Assembly: GCA_937899855.1 (NCBI GenBank)
Contig: CALCCH010000773.1
Span: 1 to 37,499, forward strand
Direction of reading: 5' to 3'
Source: an uncultured Saprospirales bacterium
GTDB taxonomy: Bacteria; Bacteroidota; Bacteroidia; Chitinophagales; Saprospiraceae
DNA: 37,499 nucleotides
Shown here: positions 3,886 through 37,499 of the stretch, in pieces
Numbering within the stretch: position 1 is the first letter of the stretch
Layout of the letters: the number at the start of each line of letters is the position of its first letter
Made by a program: the position numbers and the translations under genes
The notes under the pieces: generated by a model
Told to the model about the DNA's origin: nothing
The model's input: the letters and a program-made list of their open reading frames with translations, nothing else
Databases searched by the model: none

Positions 3886-4713
3886 ATGATTTTCTATAAG
3901 ACAGCGGATGAAATCGAACAGATCAGAGAAAGTTGCCTGATCGTGTGTAAGGCACTGGCCCACGTGGCCAGTCGGATTCGACCGGGAATGACCGGCGAAC
4001 AGATCGATCGGGAGGCAGAAGCATTGATTCGAGACCACGGTGCCGATCCTGGATTCAAGGGCTACCGAGGTTTTCCCGCCACCCTGTGTATTTCCGTCAA
4101 CGAAGGCGTGGTACACGGCATTCCCAGCAAAACCGAATTCCGCGACGGTGACGTCGTATCCGTGGATTGCGGTTCCTTCAAGAATGGCTTTTACGGAGAT
4201 TCTGCCTTCACCTTTGCCCTGGGCGAGGTGAGTGACGAAGTCATGCAGCTTCTACGCGTTACCAATACGGCGCTCTACAAAGGCATCGCCAATGCCATCG
4301 TGGGCAAGCGTTTGGGAGACATCGGTTTTGCCGTACAGGAATACTGCGAACGCCAGCACAAGTACGGCGTCGTTCGGGAGTTGGTGGGGCACGGCATCGG
4401 TCGCAACCTACACGAAGCCCCCGAAGTTCCCAACTATGGAAAGCGAGGCCGGGGTCCGATGCTCAAGGAAGGCCTGGTCATTGCCATTGAGCCGATGATC
4501 AACCTGGGGCGGAAGGAAGTAAGACAAGCCTCGGATGGTTGGACCATCATCACCAAAGACAAACAGCCCTCGGCTCACTTTGAGCACTCGGTAGCGGTAA
4601 AAAAGGGCAATGCCGATATTTTATCCAATCACGAACCCATCGAAGCGGCCTTACAAAGCAACCCCGAGGTCCACGAAGTCGGAGTGATTGCCACCGAAAG
4701 CCTAGAGATTTAG
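3886..4713 (+). CDS. map: Methionine aminopeptidase, type I
   Basis: The protein is 275 aa. It removes the initiator methionine from nascent proteins. The pita-bread fold metal ligands are visible: Asp in VSVDCGSFKNGFYGD (two Asp), His in GHGIGRNLHEAPEVPNYG, Glu in IAIEPMINLG and Glu in HFEHSVAVKKG. There is no type II insertion. The gene follows secY after 100 bases and precedes infA, as in many bacteria but without adk between. The C-terminal 35 residues or so extend past the core. Confidence 0.95.
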   Translation: MIFYKTADEIEQIRESCLIVCKALAHVASRIRPGMTGEQIDREAEALIRDHGADPGFKGYRGFPATLCISVNEGVVHGIPSKTEFRDGDVVSVDCGSFKNGFYGDSAFTFALGEVSDEVMQLLRVTNTALYKGIANAIVGKRLGDIGFAVQEYCERQHKYGVVRELVGHGIGRNLHEAPEVPNYGKRGRGPMLKEGLVIAIEPMINLGRKEVRQASDGWTIITKDKQPSAHFEHSVAVKKGNADILSNHEPIEAALQSNPEVHEVGVIATESLEI

Positions 4714-18452: not shown

Positions 18453-20819
18453 ATGAAAACCTTCCTCTTTAGCCTGCTCCTCGGTCTGAGCTTCAACACG
18501 GTTTGGGCCCAGCAAAACACTCCAAGCCTCCTCCCTCCTGCGATAGAGCCCTGCTGGTCCGTACCCGCGGATGCTCGCTTGCGCCAACGCCACCCCGAAC
18601 TGGGCGGGGTAGCGGATTTCGAACGTTGGTTGGCCAAGCGTCAGGTGGCGCTGGAGGAGGGAACCGCAAGGAGCGCGGCCTGTCAGGGCCTTCCCCAAAT
18701 TGGCCTCGTTTTTCACATCCTCCACGCGGGGGAGGCACCGGGCACTGGAGCCAACCTTTCCGCCGCTCAGATTCAGGCCCAATTGGACCGGGTCAATACC
18801 GCCATTGCGGGGGTCATGGAGTTCTGTCTGGCGGGAGTGCAGGAGGACGGGGACGCCATTCCAGAGTTGGGCATCAATCGGATCAATTGGACGACTCAGG
18901 GTTGGCCCAGTGACATCCTCGATATTTGCCAAGACCTCGACCTCACCGGTATGATCGACCTCAGTGTGCTCGACTCCATCATCAAACCCGCCACCCAGTG
19001 GGACCCCGAGCGCTTTCTCAACGTCTGGGTCATTCCGCTGGTCTGTACCGCCGAGGTCGTGGTAATGGGCCTGGGCCAGTTTCCCATCGCCTCTGGCCTA
19101 CCCGGTCTCGACGACAACGAGGCGCCTGGTGCCGCTAGCGATGGCATCGTCTTGCTGACCAACACCGTCGGTAGTGCCGATACTCCCAATCCCTATCCCC
19201 ACCCCAACCCGATCGTACAAGACCATCATGAGGGGGGCATCATGGTACACGAATTGGGGCATTTCTTTGGCCTACGTCACCTCTGGGGCGATGGCCCGGC
19301 GGTGGAGGGTTGCGATCATGCCGACTATTGTGAGGATACGCCCAATGCCCAGATCTTTTACTACAGTTGTGCGAGGCCCGCTTATTCCTGCGGCTCCTTC
19401 GACGCGCTCCACAATTACATGGGCTACACCCGCGATCGCTGTCGAAATAGCCTGACGCCCTGTCAAGTACTGCGGATGCAAACGGTTCTGGCCAATAGCC
19501 CCCGTCGGCGAAGCCTCTGTGGCAACGGAAGTTGCTGTGTCGAAACGGTGACCCTGCGTTTTGCGATCGAAGACCTCAACGGGATTCCGCGGAGGGACTT
19601 CTGCGAGGGCGATCCGGTGCTGATCGACGGTCGGGCCAGCCTCGCCGAAATGGATTACCGCGTGGAGGTTTACCGTCGCCCTTTGGCTGGGGGAGACGCC
19701 TACCAACTGGTGTACGATTTTGGTTGGATCGCTACGCCCTTGCCCGATCCGATCAACTTGGGGGATTGGTTAATGGCGGTGGGGCTAGCGATGAAAGGGG
19801 GCGAGGAATATCGGGTCCGGCTTTCTACCAACGCTACTTGTGGTACCATCACCAGGACCAAGCGCTTCCGTTATCACCCCAACAATCAAAATATTGTCCT
19901 TCGTACCCTAGATGCCACCGGGGAGCCCCGGAGTTCTTTCTGTCCCAATGAGGAGGTTTGGGTGGAACTGTTAGAAAACGAAGACCTCACCAGCCATCGG
20001 TACCGGGTCCTGCGCCGTTTGCCAGGCGGTAGTCAGTACGCGCCCTACCACAGTGGGAGCATCAGTAGTGGTCCGCCGAGCCCACTTCCCCTTACGGCTT
20101 GGTTGGCAGCGGTGGGACTGGCCCTGGAAGCCCCCTACGAATACGCAGTCGAGCTCGACGCTTGGGGGGATTGTTTTGGCTACGCACTGGGGAGTAGCAC
20201 CATTCAGGTCAACGACTGTTTGCCCACCTGCGCTCCTCCCGAGAACCTGCGCTGTGAAAGGGGAGAAAACGATCCGCGATTGGTTTGGAACCCGGTCAGT
20301 CAAGCGACGGCTTATGCGTTGCACCTTCGTCTTTACGACCCGGCTTGTACCTGTGGGGTGGGAGCTATGGAGGACCGTTTCCCCGTCGTAACGACTTCGC
20401 ATTACTCCCTGCCTCCCGATTTGGCCCAGGCTTGTTTTAGCTGGCGGGTAAAGACGGTTTGTGGGGTTTTGGAGGCGCCGGTGTATACAGCACTCGGGTG
20501 CTATTCTCCCGAGGCGCAATGTAACTCATGGGGGCGGGCCAGTAGCGCTCTTGATCGCTTGGTCAAGCGGGATTTGGTGGTGTATCCCAATCCCAGTAGG
20601 GGGAGCTTCCGAGTCGAGTGGCCGGGAGGGGAGGATTACCAATTGCGGGTCCTGGATTTTAGGGGGCACCTGGTGTATGCCACGCGTGGTGAGGCCATCG
20701 GTACTGGATTGCTACGCAATGGGCTGGAATTGGAAGTCGATTGGGCGAATGGTTTGTATCTCCTGCAAGTAAAGAGTGCCACCCAGACCTACGAGCAAAA
20801 AATAATGCTGGTGAGATAA
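18453..20819 (+). CDS. Secreted M43-family (pappalysin-like) metalloprotease with type IX sorting domain
   Basis: The protein is 788 aa with signal peptide MKTFLFSLLLGLSFNTVWAQ. The zinc motif HELGHFFGLRH is at residues 266-276 and the Met-turn NYMGY is near 322-325, as in M43 metzincins. Two related modules of about 105 residues follow (about 361-470 and 477-590), sharing an F-C pair, a YRV--YRR block and a W-L-A-VGLA block. A fibronectin-III-like segment comes next (about 595-695). The sorting domain (about 708-788) starts VVYPNPSRGSFRVEW. It is likely displayed on the surface or released, and processed by PorU. It lies 107 bases after the anti-sigma-like gene on the same strand. Confidence 0.9.
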   Translation: MKTFLFSLLLGLSFNTVWAQQNTPSLLPPAIEPCWSVPADARLRQRHPELGGVADFERWLAKRQVALEEGTARSAACQGLPQIGLVFHILHAGEAPGTGANLSAAQIQAQLDRVNTAIAGVMEFCLAGVQEDGDAIPELGINRINWTTQGWPSDILDICQDLDLTGMIDLSVLDSIIKPATQWDPERFLNVWVIPLVCTAEVVVMGLGQFPIASGLPGLDDNEAPGAASDGIVLLTNTVGSADTPNPYPHPNPIVQDHHEGGIMVHELGHFFGLRHLWGDGPAVEGCDHADYCEDTPNAQIFYYSCARPAYSCGSFDALHNYMGYTRDRCRNSLTPCQVLRMQTVLANSPRRRSLCGNGSCCVETVTLRFAIEDLNGIPRRDFCEGDPVLIDGRASLAEMDYRVEVYRRPLAGGDAYQLVYDFGWIATPLPDPINLGDWLMAVGLAMKGGEEYRVRLSTNATCGTITRTKRFRYHPNNQNIVLRTLDATGEPRSSFCPNEEVWVELLENEDLTSHRYRVLRRLPGGSQYAPYHSGSISSGPPSPLPLTAWLAAVGLALEAPYEYAVELDAWGDCFGYALGSSTIQVNDCLPTCAPPENLRCERGENDPRLVWNPVSQATAYALHLRLYDPACTCGVGAMEDRFPVVTTSHYSLPPDLAQACFSWRVKTVCGVLEAPVYTALGCYSPEAQCNSWGRASSALDRLVKRDLVVYPNPSRGSFRVEWPGGEDYQLRVLDFRGHLVYATRGEAIGTGLLRNGLELEVDWANGLYLLQVKSATQTYEQKIMLVR

Positions 20820-21984: not shown

Positions 21985-24135
21985 ATGATTAACACGCCCG
22001 AGCACATCAATATCTTTATCGCCTATACCTCCACCGACCGGAGCTTCCTCGAGGAATTGAAGGTTCACCTCAGCGTGCTGGAGCGGCTGGGGCTAGTTGA
22101 TAAGGTATGGTACAACGGTCTGGTCGAAGTCGGCAGCGACTGGGAGGCAACGGTCCATGACGCCCTCCACCGATCCGATATCATCCTCCTACTGGTCAGT
22201 GCGGACTTTATCGCCTCCGACTTCTGCTACCACCAAGAGATGAAGCAGGCCGTCCGGCTACACGAGGAAGGCCGGGTTCGGACCATCCCCATCATCGTTC
22301 GCCCCTGTCTGTGGGAACGGGCCCCCTTTGCCGAGCTGGAGGTCCTTCCCCGCAATGGGCTTCCGATCTCCAGTAGCGACTGGGCCCACGCCGACGAGCC
22401 CTACGTCCAAATTACCCGCACCATCGAAGACATTATCCTGGATCTCAAGCAGGAGGACCGGCCCCCGGACCAGCAGAAACGCCACCTGGAGTTTCAACGT
22501 AGCCAGGAGGAAGCCGAGCATTATTTTGCGGCGGGCAAATGGCTGGAAGCCCAAGCCAAGTACCAGCAAGCCCTCCATTTTGCCCAAAGCGAAAGCGCCG
22601 TGGAGGTTGCCGCTGTCGAGCGGCGTCTGGAGCGCTGCCGCAACGAGATCTACTTCCAGCGCCACCTCGCCCGCGGTGAACAGGCCTACCGCGAGGAGCG
22701 CTTTCTCGACGCCCGCTCCGCCCTGGCCCAGGCCCTGGTCTTCAAACCCGAAGATTCCGAAGCTGCCGTACTCAAAGCGGCTACCGAGGCCGCCCTGGCC
22801 GCCGTGGCGCCGGTACGGGAGGAACCCAAGGAGGATTCCCAAGCTCCCCGATTTTTACAACTCAAAATTTTTGGGATCGAGGTATTTAAGCTGGTCATCG
22901 CCATGAGTACGGTGGGCCTGCTGCTCACCCCCCTGTTGTTGCTCCAGAAGGGCGGCACCGGCCCGGTGGCCTCGCTGGAGCAAGGCGGCATCGTATACCG
23001 CAATGCCGATCAGGAGGTGGTACTGCGGACGGATTATCTCGCCGGGCGGAACTTCTCTGAGGGCTTGGCGCCCGTACAGAATGCGGCGGGTAAATGGGGC
23101 TACATCGACGAGGCGAATGAGGTACAAATCGAATTCGACTACGATGGGGCCTGGCCCCACTCCCCACAGGAGGATCTGGCCTACGTTGCCCGGGATGGGC
23201 AGTGTGGTTTTATCGATCGGTCGGGAGAGGTACGGATTCCCCTGACCTACCTGGATGCGGCCTCCTTTAGTGAGGGCTTGGCGATGGTAAAAAAGGCGGA
23301 GGGCGACTTTGCCTTTATCGACGCGCGGGGGCGGGAGCTCATCAGCGGACTCGACAGCGTAATCACCCCGCGTTTTGAGCAGGGGGAGGCCATCGTGGTG
23401 CGGGACGGGCGGCAGCTGACCATCGACCAGCGGGGACGCTGCGTGGAAAATTGTCCGGAAGAGCGGGAGTGGAACGAGCGGCGGCGGAAAAGACGGGAGG
23501 AGGAATTGCTCCGGGCGAGTGGGAAAGTGGGGGAGACCCAGGAATGCGAACGCGCCCTGATGAAGTGGGATGAGGTCGAGCGTTTGAGTACGGAGGGAAA
23601 GACGCAAAAAGAGGTGGCCCAAAGACGGACCCGTCTACAAAAGGAACGGGACGACCAGCACCGCAACCAGTTTGATTCGCTTCGGCACGTGGCGGATGAA
23701 TCCTTTGCCGAGGGTGATTTTGCCAGTGCCCTGGAGGGCTACCGCGCTGCTGACCAGCTGCCTTATTCGGGCAAGCAGGTCCTGCGCAGACGCCTCCAAC
23801 TGAGCCAGCGCGCCCTTCGTGAGGAAGCGACCCCATCCGCAACCAGTATTTATGGGTTCCCGCATCCCGATGGCGGATGGGGCATCAAGAACGCCGCCCA
23901 CGAGGTCCTGTTGCCTCCCCAGTTTGATTCCGTCGGCGTCTTTTCCAATGGCTACCTGGCCATCCAAAAAGAGGGACAATGGGGCTTTATCAATGAAAAA
24001 GGAGAGGTGACCATCAAGCCTTTTTACGATGCAGTCGTGCGGGGATTCTCGCCCGAGGGCTTTGCCTTGGTCAAAAAAGGAGCGCGTACCCTACGGCTCA
24101 ATCGGCACGGCCGGACCGCGAAAGTCCGTCATTGA
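21985..24135 (+). CDS. TIR-domain protein with TPRs, a membrane segment and WG repeats
   Basis: The protein is 716 aa. Residues 5-150 are a TIR domain: INIFIAYTSTDRSFLEELKVH, SDIILLLVSADFIASDFC, and Glu85 in CYHQEMKQAV at the position of the catalytic Glu of TIR NADases. Residues 165-280 hold TPR-like helices (AEHYFAAGKWLEAQAKYQQAL). A hydrophobic helix follows (about 298-320, VIAMSTVGLLLTPLLLL). Then WG-type beta repeats (KWGYIDEANEVQIEFDY, GFIDRSGEVRIPLTY), a charged helical stretch, and a final WG repeat (QWGFINEKGEVTIKPFYDAV). The TIR part should be cytoplasmic and the WG part periplasmic. It could be a ligand-sensing signalling or NAD-consuming protein; activity is not shown. Confidence 0.85.
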   Translation: MINTPEHINIFIAYTSTDRSFLEELKVHLSVLERLGLVDKVWYNGLVEVGSDWEATVHDALHRSDIILLLVSADFIASDFCYHQEMKQAVRLHEEGRVRTIPIIVRPCLWERAPFAELEVLPRNGLPISSSDWAHADEPYVQITRTIEDIILDLKQEDRPPDQQKRHLEFQRSQEEAEHYFAAGKWLEAQAKYQQALHFAQSESAVEVAAVERRLERCRNEIYFQRHLARGEQAYREERFLDARSALAQALVFKPEDSEAAVLKAATEAALAAVAPVREEPKEDSQAPRFLQLKIFGIEVFKLVIAMSTVGLLLTPLLLLQKGGTGPVASLEQGGIVYRNADQEVVLRTDYLAGRNFSEGLAPVQNAAGKWGYIDEANEVQIEFDYDGAWPHSPQEDLAYVARDGQCGFIDRSGEVRIPLTYLDAASFSEGLAMVKKAEGDFAFIDARGRELISGLDSVITPRFEQGEAIVVRDGRQLTIDQRGRCVENCPEEREWNERRRKRREEELLRASGKVGETQECERALMKWDEVERLSTEGKTQKEVAQRRTRLQKERDDQHRNQFDSLRHVADESFAEGDFASALEGYRAADQLPYSGKQVLRRRLQLSQRALREEATPSATSIYGFPHPDGGWGIKNAAHEVLLPPQFDSVGVFSNGYLAIQKEGQWGFINEKGEVTIKPFYDAVVRGFSPEGFALVKKGARTLRLNRHGRTAKVRH

Positions 24136-31427: not shown

Positions 31428-32654
31428 ATGCTACAGCGTATCCTACTCCTGGTCGGCCTCGTCGGGACCACCCCCAGCCCCGCCTCCGCCCAAGCTGGCT
31501 GTACCGACCCCCAGGCCGAAAATTACGAGCCCACCGCCACCCAAAACGACGGCTCCTGCACCTACCCCCTCACCAACTACCAAGCCGCGCGACGGGCCAA
31601 CCTCCCCGCCGACCTCGAAGAGTGCTCCGGCCTCCTCTGGCTCGATGGTCAGCTCTGGGGGCACAACGACAGCGGCAATCCCGCCATCCTCTACCAGCTG
31701 GACACCCTCGACGCCAGCATCCGGCGCCGCGTCGTACTGGCCAATGCGAACTACGTCGATTGGGAAGACCTTAGCGCCAACCAGGATTTCGTATTCATAG
31801 GCGACTTTGGCAACAACGACGGCAGCCGGCGCGACCTACGGATTTACCGCTTCCCTCGCACCGACCTGGCCCTCGATACCATCCGCGAGTTGGATACCAT
31901 CGCCTTCTCCTACGGCGACCAAAGCGATTTTGAACCCGCCAACCTCAATACGCCCTACGATTGCGAAGCCTTTTTCGCCACCGCCGACAGCCTCCACCTC
32001 TTTTCCAAGGATTGGGTTCGGCAAATTACCCGCCACTACGTGCTCCCCAACCAAACTGGCGTCCACGTGGCCCAGTTGCGCGATTCCCTCGACGTTCGCA
32101 CCCTCGTCACCGCCGCCGACCGCGCCCCGGATGGGACCATCGCCCTGCTCGGCTACGAAGGCCTGGAGGGGGTACTCTGGTTGTTGTTTGACTACCCCGC
32201 CGGGCAGCCCTTCGCCGGACACAAACGGCGCATCGAATTGGGTAGTTTGTTGGAACTGGGGCAGGCCGAGGCCCTCGTTTTTCGGGAGGCCGGAGTGGGA
32301 TTTTTGGCCTCCGAGCGGCTCTTTGGCTTTCCCATTGGCCCCCAGCTTTTTTCCTTCCGCAGCGCGCAGTGGACCCGGGCTGCGCTCAATCCGCTGTCTT
32401 CCCCCGCCCCGGAGCTTTTCGATCCTCAGGTGTACCCCAACCCCGTCGGTGGCAATCACTTCCGGCTTCGCCAGATCCGTCCCGAGCGGGCGCTAGACCT
32501 CGCTTTGTACGATCAGTGGGGGCGTAGGCTGTGGCGAGCGGAGCAGCGGTCGGCGGAGGTGTCGCTGGCGGGAATCGAATGGCGGCCCGGTCAGTACTGG
32601 CTGAGGGTACGGCAGGGTAGGCTGGAAAAGTGGATCAGTGTTGGGCGCTTTTGA
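31428..32654 (+). CDS. Secreted protein with type IX sorting domain, function unknown
   Basis: The protein is 408 aa. A signal peptide (MLQRILLLVGLVGTTPSPASAQ) is followed by a short Cys motif with AGCTDPQAENYEPTATQNDG and SC, a module seen repeatedly in marine Bacteroidota surface proteins. The middle 250 residues are probably a beta-propeller-like region, with repeated strand patterns such as SGLLWLDGQLWGHNDSGNPA and DFVFIGDFGNNDGSRRDLRIY. I do not recognise a catalytic family. The last 80 residues (from VYPNPVGGNHFRL to QYWLRVRQGRLEKWISV) form a type IX sorting domain. The gene starts 24 bases after the RNase P RNA. Confidence 0.85.
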   Translation: MLQRILLLVGLVGTTPSPASAQAGCTDPQAENYEPTATQNDGSCTYPLTNYQAARRANLPADLEECSGLLWLDGQLWGHNDSGNPAILYQLDTLDASIRRRVVLANANYVDWEDLSANQDFVFIGDFGNNDGSRRDLRIYRFPRTDLALDTIRELDTIAFSYGDQSDFEPANLNTPYDCEAFFATADSLHLFSKDWVRQITRHYVLPNQTGVHVAQLRDSLDVRTLVTAADRAPDGTIALLGYEGLEGVLWLLFDYPAGQPFAGHKRRIELGSLLELGQAEALVFREAGVGFLASERLFGFPIGPQLFSFRSAQWTRAALNPLSSPAPELFDPQVYPNPVGGNHFRLRQIRPERALDLALYDQWGRRLWRAEQRSAEVSLAGIEWRPGQYWLRVRQGRLEKWISVGRF

Positions 32655-32696: not shown

Positions 32697-33878
32697 TTAG
32701 GGAGCTTCGGAAAAGGCGCCGAAGTCGAAGAGCAAACTAAAGCGCAGCGTATTGTCGAGGGGATTACGCTGGTTGGTGGTGGGGACGAGGTAGGAGAAAT
32801 TCAAGCCAAAAATATTGTACTTGAGTCCCAGACCCACGGTAAAGAACTTGCGATTGCCCTTGGTTTTGTCTTCGGTGTAGTAGCCCGCCCGTACGGCGAA
32901 CTGCTTGTCGTACCAGTATTCCACCCCAAAGGAGTACATCAATTCGCGCAATTCTTCGGAAAATCCGCCGGGGGCATCGCCAAAGGAGCTGATGACGCCC
33001 GAGAACATGGACTTTTCGCGCCAGTCGACGTCGGGATTGGGGGTGGGGACGAGTAGCTTGTTGAGGTCAAAAGCGAAGGTGATGCTGTTGAACTCATCAA
33101 AGTTCAGTTCCCAAGCTGCTCCCAGGCCAAGGTTGGCGGGGAGGAAATCGCGGTTGACCGAGCGGGTGTAAGAAATTTTGGTGCCCAGGTTGGTGATGGC
33201 CGCGGCGAGCGTCAGATTCGACGGGCTACCGGTGGCGTTGAGTTGGGTGCGGTAAGTGACCGAGAGGTCCGCTGCACCCGCCACTCCGGGAACGATTTCG
33301 ACGTTGTTGACGGTTTGGTTGCTCGCCAGGTTGGAATAGATAAACTTGGGATTGATGGCCACGGAGAAGTTGGGCGTCAGCTGACGGGCGTAGCCAAAGG
33401 TAATCTCAAATTCGTTGGGACGCCCCGTTCCGATGGGCATGCCGTTGTTGTCCGTAAAGTTGATATTTCCCAGCGAAAAATAGCGCAGCCCGAAGACCAA
33501 GGTTTCTAGCTCGCTGATGCGTTTGTAACCACTGAGATAGGCCAGGTAGACGTCCTGCAGGCCCAGGGCACGCAACCAGGGCGTATAGGTAGCCGATAGG
33601 CCCAAATCCTCTTCCGCAAAGGCGAGTTTGGAGGCGTTGAAATGGACGGAGTTGGCATCGGGTGAAATGGCCAGGCCCACATCTCCCATTGCCCCGGAGC
33701 GAGCATCGGGAACGATTCTCAAAAAGGGAACCGCCGTTTGGATAGAGTTGACGCAATCATCCGTCGATTGCCCTCCAGCTCCACCGGTAGTTGCACAGAA
33801 AAAAGTCTGAGCTGAGGCGGGGACGGCCAGGAGGATTGCCATGACTCCGAGGGTTAGGGAACAAAGTAATTGTTTCAT
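32697..33878 (-). CDS. porV: Type IX secretion outer-membrane shuttle protein PorV (LptO)
   Basis: The protein is 393 aa with signal peptide MKQLLCSLTLGVMAILLAVPASAQ. It is a FadL-like outer-membrane beta-barrel. The N-terminal hallmark is PFLRIVPDARSGAMGDVGLA, then NASKLAFAEEDLGLSATYTPWL. It ends in a barrel closing strand (RFSLLFDFGAF). PorV collects substrates from the SprA translocon and carries them to the PorU sortase complex. It lies downstream of porU on the same strand, the arrangement known in Flavobacterium. A clear -7 element lies upstream, so it can be expressed separately from porU. Confidence 0.95.
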   Translation of the reverse strand: MKQLLCSLTLGVMAILLAVPASAQTFFCATTGGAGGQSTDDCVNSIQTAVPFLRIVPDARSGAMGDVGLAISPDANSVHFNASKLAFAEEDLGLSATYTPWLRALGLQDVYLAYLSGYKRISELETLVFGLRYFSLGNINFTDNNGMPIGTGRPNEFEITFGYARQLTPNFSVAINPKFIYSNLASNQTVNNVEIVPGVAGAADLSVTYRTQLNATGSPSNLTLAAAITNLGTKISYTRSVNRDFLPANLGLGAAWELNFDEFNSITFAFDLNKLLVPTPNPDVDWREKSMFSGVISSFGDAPGGFSEELRELMYSFGVEYWYDKQFAVRAGYYTEDKTKGNRKFFTVGLGLKYNIFGLNFSYLVPTTNQRNPLDNTLRFSLLFDFGAFSEAP

Positions 33879-34248: not shown

Positions 34249-35601
34249 CTAGCGCAAAATGACCAGGCGTTCGAAGTCGCTTTCGGCTTTCAAATCCGAA
34301 TCCAAGAGCTCGGGCGCCCGGAGCTTGACGCGGTATACGTAGACCCCCTTGGCCAGTTGGTCGCCAAAGTCGTCGGTGCCGTCCCAGTGGACGTCCGTCA
34401 CGCGGTTGCCCTGGGCAAAGGAGCGCTGGACGATGGTTTTGACCAAACGCCCCGAAACGGTGAAAATCTGGACCTGAACCTCCAAATCCAAGCCACTCAG
34501 GTTGTGCTCAAATTGGAAATTGGTGCTGGTGGTAAAGGGGTTGGGATAATTGAGGACGTGATCCAAAGCGACGTCTTCGGTATTGGCCACGACGAATTCC
34601 GTACTGCCCGTGGAAAAGTTATTGGCTACGTCCCAGGCGGTCACTTCCACCTGGTGCCGTCCTTCGGCCAGGTCAAAAATGGGGAAGCGGACCCGCCCTT
34701 TGGTAAAATCATCCTGCTCGGCTTCGTAAAAATCGTTGAGGATGTAAGGCGCTTGCGTATTGCCATCGAGGATGGCGGTGAGGTCGTGTCCGACACTCGT
34801 TCCGGCGACGTTGATCCCATTGTCATCCGACAAGCGAACGAAAAGGGCCGGATTGTCATTGGTCAGACCGCCCGAGACGAAGTTTTCATCGTTGATGAAC
34901 ACCTCCACCAGGGGCCCCGCCCCATCGCTAACCGGATTTTCCGCACTGCCCCCCACGATCAAATCCTCAAAGTATCCGCGCGCATCGGTCTCCTGGCCGT
35001 CCTCGGCGTAGTAGCTGATCCGTCCCTGACCAAAGTCGTAGTCGATGTCCTGCGGTACCACGAAAGTAAATTCAAACGCTCCGTTGCGGACCGTAGCGGC
35101 CCCCTTGAAGATGATGCTCTTTTGTACGCGAAACTCCACCGGACTACTCGATTCGTCCTGGCCCAGGGTCGATACGACCGTCTCTTTGTCGTAAACGGTA
35201 GGAAAGATGCGACCGTTGAACTGCTCCAGTACGTTGCCGTTGTCATCGGTCACCAAACCGCGAACGGTCACCTTCTCCAGCGCTCCAATCGTGTCCTGTG
35301 GGTTGCCTTCGACGGCCACTCCATTGATGTGGGTAGTGGCTACGCGGTACCGGGGTAAGGCCAGCTTCATGCTGGGATCTCCCAAAAGGGTAAATTTCAA
35401 GGTATTGTCGGCACTGGCTTGGGCATTGTCCTTGGCGATGCGCAGAATCTCACCGATCGTCCGGCTGGGGCTGTCGAGGGCACCCCCTTTGAGAAGGAAG
35501 TCGAAAACGCTATCCGTCAGCCGTTTGTTTTGTTGGGCGAATACCGCCCGTACGCTGCTAAACAGTGCAATGGCCCCTCCGTCGGGGCAGATGATGGCCA
35601 A
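34249..35601 (-). CDS. porU: PorU, C-terminal part after an in-frame stop codon
   Basis: This frame continues directly, with no frameshift, from the preceding catalytic part. It opens with LAIICPDGGAIALFSSVRAVF, the conserved gingipain-fold segment that follows the catalytic Cys in PorU. It then has GDPSMKLALPRYRV and beta-sandwich domains. It ends in a type IX C-terminal domain (LNYPNPFTTSTNFQFEHNLSG onward, closing ERLVILR). The codon before it is TAA (35602-35604). It could be translated alone only by re-initiation at the adjacent TTG. It is most likely part of a broken or miscalled porU rather than a separate gene. Confidence 0.85.
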   Translation of the reverse strand: MAIICPDGGAIALFSSVRAVFAQQNKRLTDSVFDFLLKGGALDSPSRTIGEILRIAKDNAQASADNTLKFTLLGDPSMKLALPRYRVATTHINGVAVEGNPQDTIGALEKVTVRGLVTDDNGNVLEQFNGRIFPTVYDKETVVSTLGQDESSSPVEFRVQKSIIFKGAATVRNGAFEFTFVVPQDIDYDFGQGRISYYAEDGQETDARGYFEDLIVGGSAENPVSDGAGPLVEVFINDENFVSGGLTNDNPALFVRLSDDNGINVAGTSVGHDLTAILDGNTQAPYILNDFYEAEQDDFTKGRVRFPIFDLAEGRHQVEVTAWDVANNFSTGSTEFVVANTEDVALDHVLNYPNPFTTSTNFQFEHNLSGLDLEVQVQIFTVSGRLVKTIVQRSFAQGNRVTDVHWDGTDDFGDQLAKGVYVYRVKLRAPELLDSDLKAESDFERLVILR

Positions 35602-37499
35602 TTACCCGGCCGTGAACCCATCCGGTTCGTCGAAGCCAGCGAAGGAGCAAGTGGCGGTGATGAACAGGGGAAGACGATCGTAATTTTCCCAACTCGAGAT
35701 GTCGCTCTGCCGCAGCACCCGCTCCTGCGCCCAGCCACTGGAGCCCCCGTGTCCCAAGTAGTTGATCGCCAGCGTACCCCGAAACATATCGCGGTTGAGG
35801 CTTTCCTGGGCTTGGGGAATCCGCGCACCACCGGGCGTTGATTCCTGGAAAAAAGCATCGAGGTAAATCTTGGATTGGTTGAAATCGGGTTCTTCATCAT
35901 CCAGCACCTCGGCGGTAGAATCGGTATCTCGGAGGTGGATATTGTTGTCCTCGTCATCCGCGACGAAGATGAGGCGGTTGCGCCAGTCGCCCAGGCAATC
36001 GGAATTGGTGTCGTAGTGGATGATTTTGTTGACCAAGCCCTGGGCCTCCGTAGCCGATCGGGCGGGCAGGCGCCCCACGGCGATGTCGCGGCCCCGGCCG
36101 AGCGGGTCGCCTTCGTCCTCATCGAGGTAGCTGTAGTAGTCGTCGGTGGGGTAGGCCGAGAGGGCGTTGAGGGAGTAGAGCGTTTCGAAGGTGGGGACGA
36201 AATTGCCCCCGGCGCCGTACTTGTTTTTGTAGTCAAAGGAGGCATCACCAAAGAGGAGCATATAGTGAAAATCGCTGTTGCGCAGGTAGAGCATCCGGGC
36301 AAAGTCGCGGATGGCGGTGGGGTCGATTCCTCCCGAGGAAAACTCGTTGTAGATATCGCCGATGGCGACGGTGGCGATGTCCAGATTGCTGTGCGTCCGT
36401 CGGTGTTGGGCCAGCTGTTCGGCCTGGCTGGCGAAGTTGGGATGGTAAATGATGACCATGTCCACGTTGTCGATGCTGTGGATGTTTTGGTTGGCGATTT
36501 TGCCCACGCGCTCGGGGCTGGGGAAGCTGTTGCTCCGGCGGAAGGCGACAAATTCGCGAATCACTTCGTTGGTCGTCACGCCAAAGCGAAGGAGGTCGTT
36601 GGTGCGATCGAAGGACTGCACCAGTGGATTTTGTCCATTGGTGATGTCCCAGATTTCGACTTCGGCATCGACGTTACTCAGCTCAAAGGTGGAGCTGGCG
36701 TAGTCCAGGGTCTGGGCATCGCGGAAGGCCAGGGGTTCGCTGACCATGTTGAGCTTGCGCCGGGCATTGAGCTGGATGTAATCCAGCCACCCCCGGTTGG
36801 TCCCATCCCCCACGGCGGGGTAGTTGACGAGGATATTGATGCCATCGCCATTGGAGGTAAAATTGCCATCGATGCTGCCACTGTTGGCAAAATCGCTATC
36901 GACTTTATCGAGGGGCGACTGGCGGATGGAATTGCTTTCGAAGGTTTGGTTGCTATTGGCCGTCACGGTAAAGCGGGTCTGGAGGTTGTGGCGACCGATC
37001 AGGACGGTGGTGACGTTGACGGGGCTGTTGGTATCGAGGAAGGGGAAGTTAAAGTCGTAACTGCGCTGGCGTTCTTGGCTGAATAGGTCCCCGTACCAGG
37101 AGCGGCCACTGCCCTGGGCGCCCGACATTTCGAAAAGCAGGTTGATGAATTCGTCTTCCAGACGGCGGTAGTCGTTGAAGCTGGTGGTGGTGTATTCCGT
37201 ATTGGGCAGGGAGGCTTGGGTGCCCACGCGTTTGCCATTGCCGGCGCTGATTTTGAGGAAATAGTACTTTTTGTCGTCAAAAACGTTGGTTTCCCGATCA
37301 AAGCGCGCGTTTGAACTTTTGTAATCCCACCGGTGGGGTCCTTGGGCGTAAAAGAGGATGTAGTCGCCCTCATTAAAGCGGCCATCGTTTTCTCCCACCA
37401 CGAGGATGGCATTTTCTTCGAGGTCGTCGTGGCGTGCGACGGCATTGGCGAGGGGAAGGGGCCCGCCACTGTTGCCGAGGATTTTGAGGGTACGTGGAT
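35602..37499 (-). CDS. porU: Type IX secretion sortase PorU, catalytic part (5' partial, premature stop)
   Basis: PorU is a C25 (gingipain-like) cysteine peptidase that removes the C-terminal sorting domain of type IX substrates and attaches them to lipopolysaccharide. The frame is open to the window edge, so the signal peptide and N-terminus are missing. The catalytic His is in NYLGHGGSSGWAQE (codon 35749-35751) and the catalytic Cys in FITATCSFAGFDEPDGF (codon 35647-35649). FTAG is then followed by TAA at 35602-35604, where relatives usually have Glu (AGE). One change, GAA to TAA, would explain it. The rest of the protein follows in the same frame. Confidence 0.9.
   Translation of the reverse strand, partial: PRTLKILGNSGGPLPLANAVARHDDLEENAILVVGENDGRFNEGDYILFYAQGPHRWDYKSSNARFDRETNVFDDKKYYFLKISAGNGKRVGTQASLPNTEYTTTSFNDYRRLEDEFINLLFEMSGAQGSGRSWYGDLFSQERQRSYDFNFPFLDTNSPVNVTTVLIGRHNLQTRFTVTANSNQTFESNSIRQSPLDKVDSDFANSGSIDGNFTSNGDGINILVNYPAVGDGTNRGWLDYIQLNARRKLNMVSEPLAFRDAQTLDYASSTFELSNVDAEVEIWDITNGQNPLVQSFDRTNDLLRFGVTTNEVIREFVAFRRSNSFPSPERVGKIANQNIHSIDNVDMVIIYHPNFASQAEQLAQHRRTHSNLDIATVAIGDIYNEFSSGGIDPTAIRDFARMLYLRNSDFHYMLLFGDASFDYKNKYGAGGNFVPTFETLYSLNALSAYPTDDYYSYLDEDEGDPLGRGRDIAVGRLPARSATEAQGLVNKIIHYDTNSDCLGDWRNRLIFVADDEDNNIHLRDTDSTAEVLDDEEPDFNQSKIYLDAFFQESTPGGARIPQAQESLNRDMFRGTLAINYLGHGGSSGWAQERVLRQSDISSWENYDRLPLFITATCSFAGFDEPDGFTAG

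Follow-up and report, generated by a model that had tools for sequence, protein, structure and literature searches.

The interrupted porU frame

Does an in-frame stop codon in the sortase gene porU of an uncultured Saprospirales bacterium mark a gene lost, a codon read in some other way, or a base misread in the draft genome? The window, the whole stretch of DNA that was analyzed, is 37,499 bases long and comprises the complete contig C773 of a draft assembly (G000; 807 contigs, 6.77 Mb, 91% complete). On its minus strand, porU occupies positions 34249-37497 and, upon translation, is open throughout save for a single TAA. Because the window is the entire contig, the gene runs off the contig end and lacks its 5' end. 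The features relevant to this question are listed below.

32697-33878, minus strand: porV, intact, the outer-membrane partner that anchors PorU (NF033710, 457.8 bits)
34249-35601, minus strand: downstream PorU piece, 450 aa (NF033707, 530.9 bits; PF01364, 43.8 bits; FlgD_ig, 37.4 bits)
35602-35604, minus strand: in-frame TAA, at a column that holds Glu in 105/107 and Val in 2/107 relatives
35605-37497, minus strand: upstream PorU piece, 631 aa, 5'-open (NF033707, 678.7 bits; PF01364, 272 bits)

An earlier reading made from the letters alone (hereafter, the sequence-only reading) had placed a stop within porU closely after the active site, with a TTG directly following it and porV nearby, and all of these observations hold. 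Both pieces lie in the same frame; numbered along the joined frame, the catalytic Cys is residue 617 and the stop 632, so that 14 codons separate them, and TTG lies directly 3' of the TAA. The upstream piece covers NF033707 positions 37-654 and carries the catalytic Cys along with the greater part of the C25 peptidase domain. The downstream piece covers positions 658-1094 and supplies the remainder of the C25 domain, a conserved Arg, and, at its end, FlgD_ig and Por_Secre_tail. Each piece alone exceeds the curated NF033707 cut-off of 420 bits, and the joined frame, with the stop read through, reaches 1229 bits. The NF033707, PF01364, FlgD_ig, and Por_Secre_tail matches confirm that the two halves together constitute a PorU core with its C-terminal domains.

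The best-studied point of comparison is PorU of Porphyromonas gingivalis (PG0026), a cell-surface sortase responsible for CTD cleavage and A-LPS attachment (PMC8545088). Cleavage depends on its Cys690, and 32 residues further on lies a conserved Arg; a conserved Arg at about this distance from the Cys has been proposed to participate in sortase chemistry (PMC4560394). The present protein shares the C25 peptidase domain and conserved catalytic Cys of the NF033707 family, the C-terminal FlgD-like and sorting-tail domains, and the adjoining porV. It also shares the downstream Arg, here residue 650 of the joined frame (in SSVR), 33 residues after the Cys rather than 32 and downstream of the TAA. 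It differs in the missing 5' end at the contig boundary and in the one TAA that replaces a near-invariant Glu.

Conservation of the site in relatives

The sequence-only reading had expected Glu at the stop position, such that one G-to-T change (GAA to TAA) would be enough. Alignment with 107 other PorU proteins agrees, given the Glu frequency listed above, and the column looked no different in an earlier alignment of 29 relatives. The catalytic Cys is invariant (107/107). A comparison with related genomes, which had been proposed as a check, found porU free of stops in all 57 relatives whose PorU scores above the family cut-off. The scan of close-relative contigs covered genomes other than the present one, with identities of at most 57%; in the only same-genus genome searched (G001), porU is represented by just its first ~220 positions.

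The remainder of the gene was inspected for further damage or relaxed conservation, as expected of a pseudogene, and none was found. Among 111 PorU columns that are at least 93% conserved in relatives, the window differs at two, namely the stop itself and a mild T-to-S substitution. With only these columns altered, porU is therefore without sign of decay.

In-frame stops across the draft genome

The background frequency of such stops was assessed by local tblastn of relatives' proteins against ~0.82 Mb of G000. Twelve stops, including that of porU, fell inside alignments totaling 54,770 aligned codons, and the in-frame stop rate in conserved genes is ~1.9 (about 2) per 10,000 aligned codons. 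Some of the tallied stops, such as those on C232, have weak homologs and could mark genuine pseudogenes or the real ends of genes. Family searches also show single in-frame TAGs in conserved Plug (C296), ABC_tran (C196), and AMP-binding (C135 and C699) domains of G000, and none of these domains has an in-frame stop in the relative G017. An ACR_tran match on C154 also has a TAG, at its very end, which may be the natural stop. Two relatives scanned likewise, G017 and G001 (29,055 codons together), had no stops inside genes; the few stops in their alignments sit at alignment gaps or upstream extensions. At the G000 rate, 5.6 would have been expected (Poisson P = 0.004). At the G000 rate, a gene as long as porU would carry a false stop with a probability of ~19%, and the porU stop is therefore unremarkable, though not one that the rate requires.

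A coding-potential scan that returned 29 candidates in G000 and 0 in relatives was dropped, since its threshold was uncalibrated across genomes and several candidates were ordinary neighboring genes. Two further loci were observed in passing. On C232, a histidine kinase-like frame has three in-frame stops (1990, 2215, and 2365, plus strand), which may be a genuine pseudogene or else several errors grouped together. On C49, an ACR_tran-like transporter changes frame at about 4217-4303 (plus strand), where identity to a G017 protein falls from 71.7% to 50%, a possible frameshift.

Stops in essential genes

Real mutations should spare essential genes. The dnaE gene encodes the replicative DNA polymerase, without which a cell cannot live. 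Using E. coli essential proteins as queries against G000, we retrieved 3 stops per 17,385 codons, two in dnaE and one in secA. This rate does not differ from that of other genes (about 11 per 54,770 codons; Fisher P = 1). Searches of G000 recovered a single main DnaE and a single SecA.

The two dnaE stops are TAGs in the catalytic core (C374, positions 1267 and 1312, plus strand). The translated segment reads GPGRGSEEG*AEAYCIGITYVDPI*YDLL (asterisks, stops), where 28/28 aligned relatives have GSAAGS. Within this cluster, two alanines have become Glu and one serine a stop, a neighboring valine and asparagine are altered too, and one more invariant site is altered beyond the cluster. None of the 39 other genomes of the family has a stop in this dnaE segment. 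As dnaE has not been spared, its stops are not real mutations, and the TAG pair with its adjoining missense changes is the clearest sign of sequence error in the draft. The secA stop is a single in-frame TAG near the N-terminus, about 20 codons in (C451, minus strand); one base change would not turn a codon for the residue that E. coli has there into this stop.

Kind of base change

Where it can be deduced, the residue lost to a stop is Glu, Ser, Lys, Tyr, or Leu, in every case one transversion from the stop, with 0 transitions. Frameshift candidates in G000 number just three, so the errors would be mainly substitutions. By eye, and without statistics, the false base tends to precede GG (dnaE, C296, and C699). 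Oxidative G-to-T damage or a mutY mutator was dropped as the sole cause, since A-to-T and T-to-A changes also occur, for instance in dnaE. A decaying genome was likewise rejected, given that essential genes are affected no less often than others and frameshifts are few. The sequence-only reading had considered genome-wide recoding of TAA unlikely, and this stands: TAA, TAG, and TGA all terminate long frames in G000 and the replaced residues vary from site to site, leading us to reject codon reassignment as well.

Weighing the explanations

Mutation, sequence error, and readthrough or re-initiation had all been put forward for the porU stop. The genome-wide test favors error, retains mutation at low weight, and disfavors readthrough, recoding, and re-initiation. 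We consider it probable (~0.87) that the porU TAA is a miscalled base in the assembly and that the organism has one ordinary, intact porU. On the coding strand, a T would have been called in place of the true G, converting GAA to TAA and giving porU a false stop. Error is favored because the same draft has similar single-base stops even in indispensable genes, and we infer that the porU site belongs to this class. Several points count against the assignment: the porU stop stands alone, without adjoining missense changes such as those in dnaE; the stop rate gives a gene of this length only a modest probability of a false stop; some of the tallied stops may be genuine; and the secA stop does not fit a one-base change. 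The overall pattern resembles the false stops of draft metagenomes, in which substitution-type stops turn up across conserved genes without sparing the essential ones, frameshifts are few, and relatives are free of such stops; nothing about it is specific to porU. We thus judge the break in the frame to reflect an assembly error and not a property of porU. A lone in-frame stop in this assembly, even in a well-conserved gene, should not be taken as a sign that the gene has been lost, recoded, or read through, and the other interrupted genes of the assembly deserve equal caution.

An unlikely alternative is a recent, real nonsense mutation: porU would have been inactivated in this strain or in part of the population, and T9SS cargo would be neither cleaved nor anchored. 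A single G-to-T change would suffice, and the otherwise undamaged porU is what a very recent event would leave. PorU is also no core housekeeping protein, as P. gingivalis porU mutants are viable, albeit secretion-defective (PMC4560394). Set against this, essential genes of the draft carry false stops at an equal rate, so the porU stop itself says little; porV, sprA (split over two contigs), and CTD proteins have been kept; and no further loss of porU was found among relatives with a recognizable PorU. Because the conserved Arg lies beyond the stop, a truly truncated PorU would be expected to be inactive. It is quite improbable that the stop is real and that the T9SS sortase was recently lost while its cargo proteins and remaining machinery were kept. 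If true, the organism would offer a naturally occurring example of a T9SS that lacks its sortase.

Full-length PorU through programmed or suppressor readthrough, or through a reassigned stop codon, is very improbable. The fully conserved frame that continues beyond the TAA and the interruption of further G000 genes in frame are what such decoding would produce. The variety of replaced residues and the use of all three stop codons to end long frames speak against it, as do the missense changes at invariant dnaE residues beside the stops. Moreover, no stop anticodon was found among the few tRNA genes in the 60 sampled loci, a sample outside which most tRNAs lie. Least credible, and close to negligible, is translation restart at the TTG, with two fragments assembling as a split PorU: the TTG does adjoin the TAA, but the break falls inside the C25 domain, relatives have no split porU, and a C-terminal piece lacking a signal peptide would stay in the cytoplasm, whereas PorU acts on the cell surface (PMC8545088).

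Related genes in the draft genome

G000 has no second porU, for which the sequence-only reading had suggested a search. The nearest relatives are an intact PorU2-like gene on C84 (an open frame), the sole intact homolog, and a weak C-terminal match on C632; rescue by a second porU was rejected on this basis. Of three type IX substrates proposed for the window, two were recovered as proteins with type A sorting tails (18453-20819 and 31428-32654), and no third emerged from the proteins scanned. Elsewhere in the window, a 716-aa protein (21985-24135, plus strand) weakly resembles TIR-like FxsC at its N-terminus (23.6 bits, short of the cut-off of 130). AMP-binding matches are more numerous in G000 (41) than in G017 (10), and a 7065-aa open frame on C368 contains several such domains and is probably a nonribosomal peptide synthetase.
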